Source: Lachnospira sp. (GTDB taxonomy: Bacteria; Bacillota; Clostridia; Lachnospirales; Lachnospiraceae). From it: a stretch of 49,152 bases of DNA. Each line of letters starts with the position of its first letter. The stretch's first letter is position 1. Positions 2,639 to 38,735 of this stretch are shown here, in pieces. Both the position numbers and the translations under genes were made by a program. The stretch lies in the NCBI GenBank assembly GCA_028693195.1, contig JAQUVV010000002.1, positions 1 through 49,152 of the forward strand, read 5' to 3'. Below the pieces are notes generated by a model. It was not told the DNA's origin, made no database searches, and saw only the letters and a list, made by a program, of their open reading frames with translations.

Positions 2639-5029
2639 ATGAGTACAGAAACAACATGTATTGAAAAGCAGCCATTGACCAATGAATATCTTGAGAAGAT
2701 GAATGCCTACTGGAGAGCAGCGAATTATTTATCAGCGGCACAGTTATATCTTTTGGATAATCCACTGCTTCGTGAGCCATTGACTCTAGACCAGATCAAG
2801 AAGAAAATTGTAGGCCACTGGGGAACAGTACCAGGCCAGAACTTTGTATACTGCCATATGAACAGGGCAATCAAGAAGTATGATCTGGATATGATTCTGA
2901 TTTCAGGCCCAGGACATGGTGGAAACTTCTTTGTATCCAATTCTTATCTTGAAGGTACATATAGTGAAGTATATCCGAACATCAGCCAGGATATGGATGG
3001 AATGAAGAAGCTCTGCAAGCAGTTCTCATTCCCAGGAGGAATCTCAAGCCACGTAGCACCAGAGACACCGGGATCTATTAACGAAGGTGGAGAACTTGGT
3101 TATTCTATTGCACATGCATTTGGTTCCGTATTTGATAACCCAGATTTGATTACGACCTGTATTGTAGGTGATGGAGAAGCTGAGACTGGCCCATTGGCAA
3201 CAGCTTGGCACTCTAATAAATTCTTGAATCCAGTAACAGACGGAGCAGTCCTCCCAATCCTGCACCTGAACGGATATAAGATCAGTAATCCTACAGTATT
3301 TTCCCGTATTTCCCATGACGAGATAGAGAGCTTCATCCATGGATGTGGATGGAAGCCATATTTCGTCGAGGGAGATGATCCAATGACCATGCATAAGAAG
3401 ATGGCTGAGACAATGGATACCATTATCGAAGAAATCAAAGCAATCCAGAAGGATGCCAGAGAAAATGGAAACACAGAAAGACCATTCTGGCCAATGATCG
3501 TACTTCGCACACCTAAGGGCTGGACAGGACCTAAGGTTGTCGATGGCAAGGAAATCGAAGGAACATTTAGAGCACATCAGGTTCCGATCATGATGGATCA
3601 GCCACATCACAAGGATATGTTAGAGGAGTGGTTAAGAAGCTACAAGCCAGAAGAACTGTTCGATGAGAATGGACAGCTGATTCCTGAATTGAAAGCACTT
3701 GTCCCAGAGGGAGATCACAGAATCAGTGCAAATCCTCATGCTAATGGCGGAAAGCTCTTAAGAGACTTAAGACTTCCTGATTTCAAGGACTATGCAGTAG
3801 AAGTCGCACAGCCAGGAGCAAAGGAAGGTCAAGATATGATCGAACTTGGCGGCTTCATTAGAGATATATTCAAATTAAATAAAGAGACTAGAAACTTCAG
3901 AATCTTTGGACCGGATGAGACCATGTCAAACAGACTTGGAAAAGTCTTTGAGGAAACAAACAGAGACTGGAACAATGCATTGAAAGATAATGATGAATTC
4001 TTAAGTAACGATGGATGTGTCATGGATTCTATGCTGTCCGAGCATATGTGTGAAGGCTGGTTAGAGGGATATCTGCTCACAGGTCGTCATGGATTCTTTG
4101 CAAGCTACGAAGCATTTATCAGAATCGTAGATTCTATGGCAGCACAGCATGCTAAGTGGTTGAAGGTATGCTCTCAGTTACCATGGAGACAGTCCATTTC
4201 ATCCCTGAACCTGATCCTTTCCTCTAACGTATGGCAGCAGGATCATAATGGATTTACTCATCAGGACCCAGGCTTCTTAGATCATATCGCCAATAAGAAG
4301 GCAGATGTGGTAAGAATGTATCTTCCACCAGACACCAACTGTCTGTTATCATGCTTTGACCACTGTATCAGAAGTAAGGACTATGTCAATGTGCTGGTAA
4401 CATCTAAGCATCCAAGACCTCAGTGGCTGACCATGGAACAGGCTGTTAAGCACTGTACACAGGGCGTCGGTATCTGGGAGTGGGCAAGCAATGACCAGGG
4501 ACAGGAACCAGATGTAGTTCTTGTTGGCTGTGGTGAAACACCGACTATGGAGGCACTTGCAGCAGTGACGATCTTAAGAGACAACATGCCAGAATTAAAG
4601 ATTCGTTTCATCAATGTAGTGGATTTATTCAAGCTTCAGTCCAGTGCACAGCATCCACATGGTCTGTCAGATACAGATTACGATGCACTGTTTACAAAGG
4701 ATAAGCCAATCATCTTTGCATTCCATGGCTACCCAACACTGATTCATGAGCTGACATACTTTAGACATAACAGAAATCTGCAGGTATTCGGATATCAGGA
4801 AGAAGGAACAATTACCACACCTTTCGATATGCGAGTTCAGAACGAGATTGACCGTTACCATCTGGTAGAAGCAGCAATCAATGCACTTCCACAGCTTGGA
4901 AATAAGGGAGCATATCTCTTACAGAAGATGAGAGATACATTAGTTGCCCATAAGCAACATATTGATGAGTATGGTATGGATCTTCCAGAAGTACGTGACT
5001 GGAAGTGGCATACACCAGAGAATAAGTAG
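2639..5029 (+). CDS. xfp: xylulose-5-phosphate/fructose-6-phosphate phosphoketolase
   Basis: 796 aa; characteristic phosphoketolase sequence ([58 protein letters not shown]). Confidence 0.96.
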
Positions 5030-33853: not shown

Positions 33854-33939
33854 AAACATATAAGATTACCTTTATGAAATGTGTGTATTAATAGTAAACT
33901 TACAAATAAATATAAATGACAATTAGAATAGGAGCACAT

Positions 33940-34668
33940 ATGAAAATCTTAATTATTAGACACGGAGATCCGGATTATTCCATTGATTCATTGACAGAAA
34001 AGGGTTGGAGAGAAGCAGAACTTTTATCAGAACGGATATGTAAGCTGGATGTGAAGAACTTTTATGTTTCTCCGTTAGGGAGAGCAAAGGATACTGCGAG
34101 CCTGATATTAAAAAAGCTGAATCGGGAGGCAGAAGTGAAGGAATGGCTTCGAGAGTTTCAACCCAAGATAGAGAAACCACATATTGATGGGATGAGATGT
34201 GCGTGGGACTGGCTGCCTGCTGATTGGACGGAACAGAAATACTTTTATGAGAAAGATAGCTGGGCAGATGTAGAACTTATGAAGAATGCTCGTGTTCAGG
34301 AAGAGTATGACTGGGTTACAACGGAATTTGATGCACTGTTAGAAGAACATGGCTACAAGAGAGAAAAGCAATATTATCGTGTAGAAAAAGGAAACATGGA
34401 CACGATTGTTTTCTTTTGCCATTTTGGATTGGAATGCGTGCTGCTCAGTCATCTGCTTGGCGTATCGCCGATGGTTCTGTGGCATGGAATGTGTGCAGCA
34501 CCAACTTCAGTCACGACACTGGTTACAGAAGAGAGAAGAAAAGGAATTGCATCATTTCGAATGTCATCCTTTGGGGATATCTCACATCTGTATGTTGCTG
34601 GGGAAGAGCCTGCATTTGCTGCCAGATTTTGTGAGTGCTATGAGAATATGGATGAAAGACACGATTAG
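33940..34668 (+). CDS. histidine phosphatase family protein
   Basis: LIIRHGDPDYSIDSLTEKGWREAELLSER, YVSPLGRAKDTA; RBS ggag. Confidence 0.92.
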   Translation: MKILIIRHGDPDYSIDSLTEKGWREAELLSERICKLDVKNFYVSPLGRAKDTASLILKKLNREAEVKEWLREFQPKIEKPHIDGMRCAWDWLPADWTEQKYFYEKDSWADVELMKNARVQEEYDWVTTEFDALLEEHGYKREKQYYRVEKGNMDTIVFFCHFGLECVLLSHLLGVSPMVLWHGMCAAPTSVTTLVTEERRKGIASFRMSSFGDISHLYVAGEEPAFAARFCECYENMDERHD

Positions 34669-34673
34669 GAGTT

Positions 34674-34703
34674 ATACTACAAGTTCAATGACAAAAGGGA
34701 AAA
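34674..34703 (+). repeat. 30-bp direct repeat, copy 1
   Basis: ATACTACAAGTTCAATGACAAAAGGGAAAA; copy 2 at 35829-35858 differs by one base. Confidence 0.9.
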
Positions 34704-34784
34704 GATTCTTTAATATTGTTATTATAAAGTAACAGTGTTAGGGAATCTTTTTATTTATAAAAGAAAAACTAGCAAAATTTGCGT

Positions 34785-34813
34785 TTGACAGTACATCAAT
34801 ATTGATGTATTAT
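34785..34813 (+). promoter_or_regulatory. TA operon promoter with palindromic operator in the spacer
   Basis: TTGACA (34785-34790), N17, TATTAT (34808-34813); perfect palindrome TACATCAATATTGATGTA at 34792-34809. Confidence 0.75.
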
Positions 34814-34824
34814 GAGGATGAGAA

Positions 34825-35151
34825 ATGGTAATATACGACTATACTACAAGTGGTGGAAAGAATCTTATAAAAACATATATTGATAAGTTACCTAAAAAAG
34901 AACAACTGGAAATATATGAAATAAGAAATGAAATTCGAGAGCGTGGAATAGAAGCATTTGAAAAAATCAATACCAGACAATTACGTGGAAAACTATGGGA
35001 AATAAAGGTGTCGCAGACAAGAATGATGTATGTTGTCATCAATAAAGAAGGTGTTGCATTTCTTCATATTTGTAAAAAGCAAAAAGGAAAAGCAGAAATT
35101 AAAGAACTTTCAACGGCGATAAAAAGGGCTGAAAAAGAAAAAATAATTTAA
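34825..35151 (+). CDS. RelE/HigB-like toxin (Gp49/DUF891 family)
   Basis: LPKKEQLEIYEIRNEIRERGIEAFEKINTRQLRGKLWEIKVSQTRMMYVV...FLHICKKQKGKAEIKELSTAIKRAEK. Confidence 0.85.
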   Translation: MVIYDYTTSGGKNLIKTYIDKLPKKEQLEIYEIRNEIRERGIEAFEKINTRQLRGKLWEIKVSQTRMMYVVINKEGVAFLHICKKQKGKAEIKELSTAIKRAEKEKII

Positions 35152-35164
35152 GAGGTGGAACTGT

Positions 35165-35461
35165 ATGTTAAGAATGAGCGATGCAAAGGAAGAAAAGGAC
35201 TATATTCAGAAATTAATGGATTCTGATGCGAAACTTAGACAACAGCATGAGCTGTTTTTAGCTGAAATGAAATTTAAACAAGAATTGATAGATACAAGAA
35301 AAAATAATGAACTGACACAAAAAGACATAAGCGTTCGTTCCGGTCTTCCGCAGCAATCTGTGAGTAGATTAGAAAAAGGAAAGGGTGGAACGCTGGATAC
35401 GGTTATTCGATACCTGAGTTCTATGGGATATAGTTTGACAATTAAGAAAAGTAGAATATAA
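35165..35461 (+). CDS. XRE family antitoxin
   Basis: HTH segment IDTRKNNELTQKDISVRSGLPQQSVSRLEKGKGGTLDTVIRYLSSMG; adjacent to the toxin. Confidence 0.88.
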   Translation: MLRMSDAKEEKDYIQKLMDSDAKLRQQHELFLAEMKFKQELIDTRKNNELTQKDISVRSGLPQQSVSRLEKGKGGTLDTVIRYLSSMGYSLTIKKSRI

Positions 35462-35496
35462 AGGATTCGCAAAATTCAATTCTAGGAGGATAAATC

Positions 35497-35814
35497 ATGT
35501 TTCCATTAATTAATAAAAGAGACACAGGTATTAATTTACGGAAGATTATGGATCGACAGGAAATTTCAGTTAAGGATGTTCAGATATATCTGGGTTTAGG
35601 AAGTCCTCAGAGCGTATATCATTGGTTAAATGGACTAAGTATGCCAACGATTGATAACATGTATGCACTTAGTGAGTTATTTCAGTTGGCCATAGATGCT
35701 CTGATTTGTGGGAACAAGCCTAAATTGAAACGAAATTTTGATTCAGAGATTGACAGACAGAAAAAACGTATATATATGTATTGTAGAAAATTGAATCATG
35801 AATTAGTAGCATAA
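35497..35814 (+). CDS. XRE-like helix-turn-helix protein
   Basis: LRKIMDRQEISVKDVQIYLGLGSPQSVYHWLNGLSMPTIDNMYALSELF; aggagg RBS. Confidence 0.82.
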   Translation: MFPLINKRDTGINLRKIMDRQEISVKDVQIYLGLGSPQSVYHWLNGLSMPTIDNMYALSELFQLAIDALICGNKPKLKRNFDSEIDRQKKRIYMYCRKLNHELVA

Positions 35815-35828
35815 GTATGCAATCAATG

Positions 35829-35858
35829 ATACTACAAGTTCAATGATAAAAGGGAAAA
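35829..35858 (+). repeat. 30-bp direct repeat, copy 2
   Basis: ATACTACAAGTTCAATGATAAAAGGGAAAA. Confidence 0.9.
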
Positions 35859-35898: not shown

Positions 35899-35923
35899 GC
35901 GGAGCAGAAAACTGCTCCGTTTT
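35899..35923 (+). terminator. intrinsic terminator
   Basis: cggagcag-aaaa-ctgctccg-tttt. Confidence 0.85.
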
Positions 35924-36011: not shown

Positions 36012-38735
36012 ATGAAGCAGAGCGTGGAAATTGCAGTTACAGGAATGGTACAGGGAATTGGATATCGACCATATGTGGCAAGGCTTGCAGAACAATTTCA
36101 CATAAATGGAACAGTACGGAACGCAGACGGAATTGTGTTGATTACTGCAGAAGGGAAGACCTCAGATGTGGATTCTTTTGTACATACACTGCGCAATGGA
36201 GCACTAGCAGGAGCACGCGTGGATTCTGTGGATGTGTGGGAAAAGAAATGTGATGCATATGCAGAGAAAGAATTAGATAATAGGCAAAGGTGTCATGAAA
36301 ATTACAATGGAAAGCGGACAGAGGATGATAAGCAGAGCTTTCGAATTATCCAAAGCAGTGAGAAGCATGGGGAAGGTCAAAGTGATGGTAGAACTGGTGA
36401 GGAAGTGCAGGCACCGATGATACCGATTGATTTACCAACCTGTCCACGTTGTGAAAAAGAATTGTTCGAAAAAGATAACAGACGTTTTCGATATCCATTT
36501 ATCAGCTGTGTGGCATGTGGCCCAAGATATAGCATTATTCGAAAAATCCCTTATGATAGAGAGAATACAACTATGAGGATTTTTCCTATGTGTTCAGATT
36601 GTGAGAATGAGTATACACAGAAAAATAATATTCGCAGACATGCTCAGACCATTGCATGTCACGAATGTGGACCGGTATTGAAGTTTTACAGTCCTCAAAT
36701 CATTGCTCGGAGTCATGATACAGAAAACATTGAAAGAGAATCTGAAAGTTTAATACCTTCATTAGGAAATGAAGCATACATGGAAGCAGTTCAGCTTCTT
36801 CAGTTTGGAGGAATACTTGCGGTGAAGGACATTGGTGGCTTTCATCTCACATGTCTACCAGATCATGCAAATACAGTGAAAAAGTTAAGACTGTTGAAGG
36901 GTAGAGAAAAGAAACCGTTTGCAGTGATGTTTCAGGGTGTTGAACAGGTGCGAAGCTGGGCAGAGGTATCACTACAAGAGGAACATCTGCTGACATCCGT
37001 TGCCAGGCCAATTGTATTGCTAAAGAAAAAGGCTGATCCAACGGGAGAAGACAATAGCCCATATCTTGGGGCAATGCTGCCTTGCAATCCGTTACAGATC
37101 ATGTTGATTCGTGATTGTGGACCTTTGATTATGACCAGTGCAAATGTATCTGGGGAGCCGATTATTACAGATGATAAGAAGATGATTGAGTGGTTTAGAG
37201 AGTTTTCCAAAGGCTCAGATTTTAATTCTGGTTTTGCTCCAGAGATTAACGTAGGAATTCTCTCTCATGACCGAGAAATTCTGTCGCCTTTGGATGATTC
37301 GATTGTAAGAGCGGTGCGAGGGAACAGGACTCAAATGATTCGCCGTTCCAGAGGATATGTCCCTGAACCAATTGAGATAAACATGATAGAAGATTGTGAT
37401 GATAAATTGAATAAATCGGACATGCTTATGGAAGAAAAGAATGATTCAGAAAAAGATTTAGAAAGTGATATGCGAGAGATATTTGCGGCGGGTGGAGATC
37501 TAAAATCCTCATTTTGTTTTGTGAATGGGAAGAGAGCATATATGAGCCAGTACCTAGGCGATTTGCAGGATGCTTCTATAATGGAATTATATGAGAATCA
37601 GTTGAGCAGGATGAGAGGTTTGTTTGGATTTCAGCCAAAGAATTTTATATGTGATTTACATCCGGGATATTTTTCTTCAAGACGATTAATGAGCAAGAGT
37701 CAAGCAATGCAGGTTCAGCATCATCATGCACATATTGCATCAGTCATTGCGGAGCATGGATTGAAAGGGAGAACTCTTGGAATAGCATTTGACGGAACGG
37801 GATATGGAACTGATGGCACAATCTGGGGAAGTGAGTTCTTGCTGTGTGCGGGAGCTACATTTGAACGAGTGGCGCATTTAAAACCTGTGAAATTAATAGG
37901 TGGGGATGAAGGAAGTAAGAATGCGAAAACCATATGCATGGGATTTCTTCATAATCTCAAGGATATGTGTGAAGCCACCACTTCTGCTTATATAAATGAA
38001 ACAATAGAGTTCGCGCAGGATGTGGCGGATTTGAATCAAGATCAATGCAAGATGATTGCAAAGGCAATAGACATGAATATCAACACGGTGACCTCCACAT
38101 CCATGGGAAGACTGTTTGATTGTGTCAGTGCATTGCTTGGAATCTGTACATATAATGATTATGAAGGTGAAGCAGCCATCGAATTGGAATACGAGGCATG
38201 TAAGGCATTGAGTGTCAAAGAAACAGCCAAATCACTAGGAAATTGCGATGATAGTGACTGGGAAAATCTTGTATATAGTCAAGAAGCCGCAGTCAGTCAT
38301 AGGCTACATATACCTATACAAGAAGAAAATCATGTACTTGTGGGAGATACAGCGGGATTGCTAGCGCAGATTTTGAAAAGACTGTTTCAAGAAAACAGGG
38401 AAAACGTAAAGATAGAAGCTTTGGAATCAAAGAATATCGGGAGGAACAGAGCAAGTCTGGCATTAGAACTTATTAATGCTATTGCAGATTGGATTCTGGA
38501 GACGGTTATAGGATTAGAGGGGAACCATGGTGGACAGCATCTGTTTGACCAGATTGCCTTGTCAGGAGGTACATTTCAGAATCGCATTTTACTGGATAAA
38601 ACCATTGAGCTTCTGGAAGCGAATGGCTATAATGTGTATATTAACGAGAAAGTGCCTGCCGGGGACGGTGGATTGTGCTTAGGACAGGCATATTTAGGAA
38701 GTATTCGTGCATTAAAACATGATGAAGGAAAGTAA
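36012..38735 (+). CDS. hypF: carbamoyltransferase HypF (start GTG 35991 or ATG 36012)
   Basis: Acylphosphatase domain (GMVQGIGYRPYVARLAEQF), HypF zinc fingers (CPRC...CVAC...CSDC...CHEC), YrdC and Kae1-like domains (HHHAHIASVIAEHGL, ALSGGTFQNRILL). Confidence 0.95.
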   Translation: MKQSVEIAVTGMVQGIGYRPYVARLAEQFHINGTVRNADGIVLITAEGKTSDVDSFVHTLRNGALAGARVDSVDVWEKKCDAYAEKELDNRQRCHENYNGKRTEDDKQSFRIIQSSEKHGEGQSDGRTGEEVQAPMIPIDLPTCPRCEKELFEKDNRRFRYPFISCVACGPRYSIIRKIPYDRENTTMRIFPMCSDCENEYTQKNNIRRHAQTIACHECGPVLKFYSPQIIARSHDTENIERESESLIPSLGNEAYMEAVQLLQFGGILAVKDIGGFHLTCLPDHANTVKKLRLLKGREKKPFAVMFQGVEQVRSWAEVSLQEEHLLTSVARPIVLLKKKADPTGEDNSPYLGAMLPCNPLQIMLIRDCGPLIMTSANVSGEPIITDDKKMIEWFREFSKGSDFNSGFAPEINVGILSHDREILSPLDDSIVRAVRGNRTQMIRRSRGYVPEPIEINMIEDCDDKLNKSDMLMEEKNDSEKDLESDMREIFAAGGDLKSSFCFVNGKRAYMSQYLGDLQDASIMELYENQLSRMRGLFGFQPKNFICDLHPGYFSSRRLMSKSQAMQVQHHHAHIASVIAEHGLKGRTLGIAFDGTGYGTDGTIWGSEFLLCAGATFERVAHLKPVKLIGGDEGSKNAKTICMGFLHNLKDMCEATTSAYINETIEFAQDVADLNQDQCKMIAKAIDMNINTVTSTSMGRLFDCVSALLGICTYNDYEGEAAIELEYEACKALSVKETAKSLGNCDDSDWENLVYSQEAAVSHRLHIPIQEENHVLVGDTAGLLAQILKRLFQENRENVKIEALESKNIGRNRASLALELINAIADWILETVIGLEGNHGGQHLFDQIALSGGTFQNRILLDKTIELLEANGYNVYINEKVPAGDGGLCLGQAYLGSIRALKHDEGK

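Follow-up and report, generated by a model that had tools for sequence, protein, structure and literature searches.

A direct repeat flanking a Lachnospira toxin–antitoxin islet as a probable operator–promoter site of an XRE regulator

The islet and its repeat copies

The window considered here is the whole stretch of DNA analysed, 49,152 nucleotides of contig JAQUVV010000002.1 from a Lachnospira sp. MAG. Between a histidine phosphatase gene and hypF it harbours a compact islet of three genes bracketed by a 30-bp direct repeat. The features are as follows.

33937–34668: histidine phosphatase gene, upstream flank
34674–34703, + strand: repeat copy 1, with operator dyad ACT-ACA-AGT at 34676–34684 and −35 hexamer ATGACA at 34688–34693; a complete promoter with the −10 below
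34711–34716, + strand: −10 hexamer TAATAT of copy 1, exactly 17 nt past ATGACA
34702–34752, + strand: terminator-like hairpin overlapping copy 1, arm of 20+ bp (MFE −26.7, z −9.7)
34785–34813, + strand: the toxin–antitoxin operon's own promoter, TTGACA-N17-TATTAT; a closely similar sequence precedes a 72%-identical orthologue in genome G334
34792–34809, + strand: perfect 18-bp palindrome TACATCAATATTGATGTA inside that promoter
34825–35151, + strand: toxin gene, Gp49/RelE-ParE type, 108 aa (Pfam Gp49 PF05973, E 5.1e-12)
35165–35461, + strand: XRE-type antitoxin gene, 98 aa (HTH_3, E 5e-7; weak Y4mF/HipB-type antitoxin match below cut-off)
35497–35814, + strand: second XRE gene, third gene of the islet, 105 aa, proposed regulator of the repeat (HTH_3, E 9e-6)
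35829–35858, + strand: repeat copy 2, with the same operator, ATGATA, and GTTGTG at the −10 position; no promoter expected
35901–35923, + strand: perfect 7-bp G+C-rich hairpin GGAGCAG-AAAA-CTGCTCC followed by TTTT, 42 nt past copy 2
about 36012–38735: hypF, downstream flank

The two repeat copies, the first of which reads ATACTACAAGTTCAATGACAAAAGGGAAAA, lie 1155 bp apart from start to start and are identical at 29 of 30 positions, with a single C/T difference; dinucleotide shuffles lead one to expect none. Their 20-nt core is ATACTACAAGTTCAATGACA. The first-pass annotation had described a 30-bp repeat enclosing a toxin, an XRE antitoxin and a further XRE gene, and this description is exact in both coordinates and gene content. 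Dispersal of the repeat across the genome, which the same annotation had set against its own reading, is not observed: the whole MAG (2.77 Mb in 324 contigs, ∼86% complete) contains just these two copies at no more than three mismatches over 30 bp. Its remark that no integrase or transposase is present holds for the open reading frames listed for 31–39.5 kb, among which neither was recognised. The two hairpins and the toxin operon's own promoter with its palindrome are additions to that annotation.

Pfam assigns a toxin domain of the RelE/ParE/Gp49 kind adjoining an XRE antitoxin, and by this domain content the pair is a type II toxin–antitoxin of the HigBA kind, within the RelE–ParE superfamily, for which neutralisation is predicted. 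The toxin found no match among PDB sequences, and an Rfam search of 33.8–36.1 kb returned no RNA family. The islet has a G+C content of 0.32–0.36, only slightly under that of its flanks, so that composition does not settle a foreign origin.

Transcription from copy 1 is predicted to start near 34723, inside the overlapping hairpin. The 5′ arm of this hairpin spans the promoter spacer and the −10 hexamer, and a T-run comes directly after the 3′ arm, GTGTTAGGGAATC; transcripts starting at copy 1 would be without the 5′ arm. As a T-run but no start codon lies past the 3′ arm, the structure resembles a terminator for transcripts of the histidine phosphatase gene. The promoter belonging to the toxin operon itself conforms to the consensus and is better than copy 1, which may thus be dispensable; the palindrome within it is probably the operator of the antitoxin.

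A −35 and −10 pair at fixed spacing downstream of the operator is a feature of copy 1 and of the motif family described below, and is absent from copy 2. No target gene follows copy 2, and the hairpin at 35901–35923, a probable terminator of the islet transcript, comes before hypF. Since the site after the XRE gene drives the neighbouring gene in most relatives, copy 2 is probably a remnant: either the relic of a promoter whose target gene would have been lost, or a bare operator.

The core motif in related genomes

A search with the second XRE protein yielded 35 loci in other Lachnospiraceae and related species. Most of these carry the core or a close variant, usually 5–50 bp past the XRE stop codon; in the remaining placements it lies upstream of the XRE gene or, in one locus (L025), on both sides. 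The order motif–XRE–motif is seen in L025 and L021, where one copy precedes the XRE gene and one the target, each being promoter-like. When the core alone was searched in 397 genomes of the family it was found at 29 places, compared with two for a reversed-pattern control, and the XRE gene lay within 1.5 kb in 18 of the 29 fetched motif loci, as compared with none among 29 controls retrieved through histidine phosphatase; the 29 places include neighbours in one locus, such as both window copies, and independent cases are fewer. The exact 28-nt repeat pattern had no match in GTDB contigs, which made the shorter core necessary, and the exact core had none in viral contigs. A limited literature search found no description of the motif, and an XRE regulon with this conserved operator–promoter is apparently undescribed.

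A TA...T hexamer stands exactly 17 nt past ATGACA in 46 of the 57 instances with a good core score, many of which come from related loci, whereas the other spacings tested (8 to 31) account for at most 7 of the 57 each. On the grounds of this fixed distance the core is a promoter. Counted from the predicted start, the midpoint of the dyad falls near −43. All 57 instances have A as the first base of the −35, off the TTGACA consensus, which would suit a promoter dependent on assistance from its regulator. Many instances have a start codon ∼50–110 nt downstream, usually accompanied by a ribosome-binding site.

In many of the relatives, pairing links the spacer and −10 (CCTCCCTTAGAAT) to the ribosome-binding region of the downstream gene (ATTCTAAGGGAGG), and both arms change between loci, for example to CCTCCTACAAAAT with ATTTTGTGGGAGG in L115. 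Judged from single folds, an arm of at least 8 pairs is present in 71% of cases, compared with 37% already in shuffled controls. Nested in this way, a hairpin would keep transcripts derived from upstream from being translated, or would terminate them, and would spare those started at the promoter.

The genes placed behind the motif are diverse: a 220-aa family without a Pfam or NCBIfam match, a HicAB pair, an ORF6N protein, a PIN7-domain protein, an RNA ligase, metallophosphoesterases, a DUF6290-protein module, an AAA ATPase and, as judged by eye, an AbiE-like gene pair. In G334, which belongs to another genus, the 72%-identical toxin–antitoxin orthologue is likewise bracketed by motif copies; no motif was detected at the loci of the orthologues in G164 and G277. 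The G334 orthologue lies between two of four exact copies of the motif, all in one orientation within 5 kb of contig C6 (locus L143, G334:C6:124500-135500; reverse strand, positions 3073, 3981, 5053 and 7756), which precede or separate the toxin–antitoxin pair, a DUF6290/XRE module, an AAA ATPase and a HicAB pair. A terminator-like block (GATAGCGGCGAGCAAAGTC...) is repeated there too.

Two further loci deserve mention. One (L144, G332:C36:110500-116500) presents an XRE regulator, a motif copy, metallophosphoesterases, a second motif copy and an RNA ligase, with an adjoining nucleotidyltransferase-like gene; the set looks like RNA-repair genes under an XRE regulator. The other (L059, in G003) carries the AbiE-like pair after a motif variant at reverse-strand position 1501, and its 3 kb contain no XRE gene; the first 75 residues are without a Pfam match.

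The third-gene XRE protein as candidate regulator

The product of the third gene scores 26.2 bits against HTH_3, with a cut-off of 23. This was its only Pfam match, and comparison with PADLOC and NCBIfam models assigned no family. It has no match among PDB sequences, and in phage and plasmid records only distant ones, the best being 48% (unannotated phage records) and ∼37% (Ligilactobacillus plasmids). Its recognition helix, QSVYHWL, occupies residues 38–44, and an AlphaFold model (mean pLDDT 84.5) places residue 42 inside this helix. The nearest solved folds include domains of BldD, C.BclI, C.AhdI, P22 c2 and lambda CI, all at E 0.001 or weaker. One homologue, at 4001–4313 of locus L055, is split over two reading frames and is probably broken or misassembled.

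The identity of residue 42 is coupled to the outer bases of the operator. Proteins with Q-x-(V/I)-Y-H-W face an operator that begins with AT, and those with Y-R-W one that begins with G: His goes with AT in 28 of 29 cases and Arg with G in 15 of 15. The association has a Fisher p of 7e-11, a value that ignores the kinship of the sequences, and a matrix correlation gave r 0.69, reached in 0 of 2000 permutations. Arg occurs at this position in at least two sequence subgroups (GCVQSVYRW and CPQSIYRW). Because the outer bases of the operator follow the recognition-helix residue, the third-gene XRE protein is the likely binder of the repeat.

Operator–promoter site and alternative readings

The features above are best accounted for if the repeats are, or descend from, operator–promoter sites of the third-gene XRE regulator, a reading that we hold with considerable though not full confidence. 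A regulator dimer would bind the dyad near −43, adjoining the non-consensus −35 ATGACA, and would most likely help RNA polymerase to start transcription at copy 1. Activation is given here an even chance, with repression from the same site as the alternative. The transcript begun at copy 1 would run through the toxin, the antitoxin and the regulator's own gene, resulting in putative autoregulation, and the nested hairpin would stop transcripts from the upstream gene and let pass those begun at copy 1. The toxin–antitoxin pair would be served additionally by a promoter and a palindrome belonging to itself. Copy 2 would correspond to the site that, in most relatives, drives the gene just downstream of the regulator, and it has neither a −10 nor a target in this islet.

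The first-pass annotation had taken the repeat for the footprint of an insertion. That claim largely gives way to the finding that the core is a promoter and operator beside XRE homologues in many genera and varies with their recognition helix; insertion duplication is accordingly not the sole explanation that a repeat of this kind admits. The part concerning recombination retains some probability. Past the core, the window copies agree over 10 further nt, as do only 3 of 1,817 pairs from different loci, and as these extra nucleotides fall in the spacer, where sharing is unusual for promoters, the 30 bp as a whole are not explained by function alone. The pair around the toxin–antitoxin genes in G334 shares 17 nt on the left, that is the opposite, side. 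A further locus, L049, holds motif copies at 102 and 2624 with long shared flanks (52 of 60 positions on the left, 47 of 60 on the right), which read as a local segmental duplication of the promoter together with upstream sequence. The shared flanks in the window, G334 and L049 indicate that local duplication or recombination does generate promoter copies. The two window copies probably have this origin, and deletion or exchange of the block between promoter copies is plausible.

A stronger version of the recombination argument has the block arrive as circular or linear DNA and join a resident repeat by homologous, or site-specific, recombination, leaving the two copies as its footprint. If circularised, the block would read regulator–motif–hairpin–toxin–antitoxin, which is the order regulator–motif–target of the relatives, but the same order is also expected from a simple autoregulated operon. 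The 10 nt shared past the core agree with such an entry, as does copy 2, whose different right flank and missing −10 are what a junction with host sequence would display. So does G334, where a toxin–antitoxin pair sits between motif copies with 17 nt in common on the left, at an unrelated genomic place. Against it, relatives show the motif with the features of a promoter and in front of single operons, and no recombinase was found nearby among the open reading frames listed for 31–39.5 kb. No empty site was seen either, which says little here, as no genome examined through both genes in the genus and the family was found to share the histidine phosphatase–hypF junction. Integration of a circle is compatible with the data and not needed to explain them; we regard entry of the block in either form as unlikely. 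Much less probable still is that an integron-like cassette system recombines at the repeat, in which case arrays like that of G334:C6 would be its cassette arrays. The four identical, same-orientation copies that separate toxin–antitoxin, XRE, ATPase and HicAB modules within 5 kb do recall one, but the −10 at a fixed 17 nt and the start codons downstream are features of promoters and not of attC sites, the operator tracks the XRE recognition helix, most array members share little outside the core, and no recombinase was recognised among the open reading frames of the array. Chance similarity, or a dispersed genomic repeat of unrelated nature, was also considered, the repeat being short and A+T-rich; it was rejected, and its probability is negligible, given the zero expectation in shuffles, the two copies in the MAG and the exact recurrence of the core beside homologous genes in other genera.

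The operator–promoter reading may extend beyond this islet. A portable control unit could exist in Lachnospiraceae, consisting of an XRE regulator and a near-invariant operator–promoter, often nested in a hairpin against read-through, placed over toxin–antitoxin, abortive-infection, phage-type and RNA-repair modules; the near-identical copies would also provide homology for the exchange of modules, and both readings of the repeat would then be true. This proposal is tentative, and we consider it possible rather than probable. Were the operator–promoter reading of the repeat right, an apparent insertion scar, a repeat in two copies, would be a reusable switch, and an XRE regulon over toxin–antitoxin and other conflict genes in common gut bacteria would have its DNA site, its regulator and its likely specificity residue named. 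Short direct repeats around toxin–antitoxin genes would then call for a check for shared promoters before being read as insertion footprints.

Parallels exist with lambda CI, P22 c2 and the C proteins of restriction–modification systems: the third-gene product is a small protein of the XRE/HTH_3 type, C.BclI, C.AhdI, P22 c2 and lambda CI are among its nearest fold matches, and operator copies surround its gene. Lambda CI acts at PRM from an operator at about −43, a position like that of the dyad described here. The differences are that the third-gene protein matches HTH_3 only, with no NCBIfam or PADLOC model, that a fixed promoter core, which recurs before many unrelated accessory genes, is fused to its operator, and that activation is putative here. 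In IS10-type elements and tightly controlled genes, hairpins block read-through. The motif resembles these in having a promoter in the 5′ arm and, in many relatives, a 3′ arm over the ribosome-binding site of the next gene, and the transcripts to escape would be those from the promoter itself, whereas the window hairpin has no start codon past its 3′ arm and is terminator-like. As in HigBA type II modules, a Gp49-type toxin comes first and an XRE antitoxin second behind their own promoter with an internal palindrome; unlike them, the islet adds a second XRE gene, its operator–promoter before the operon and an operator copy behind.
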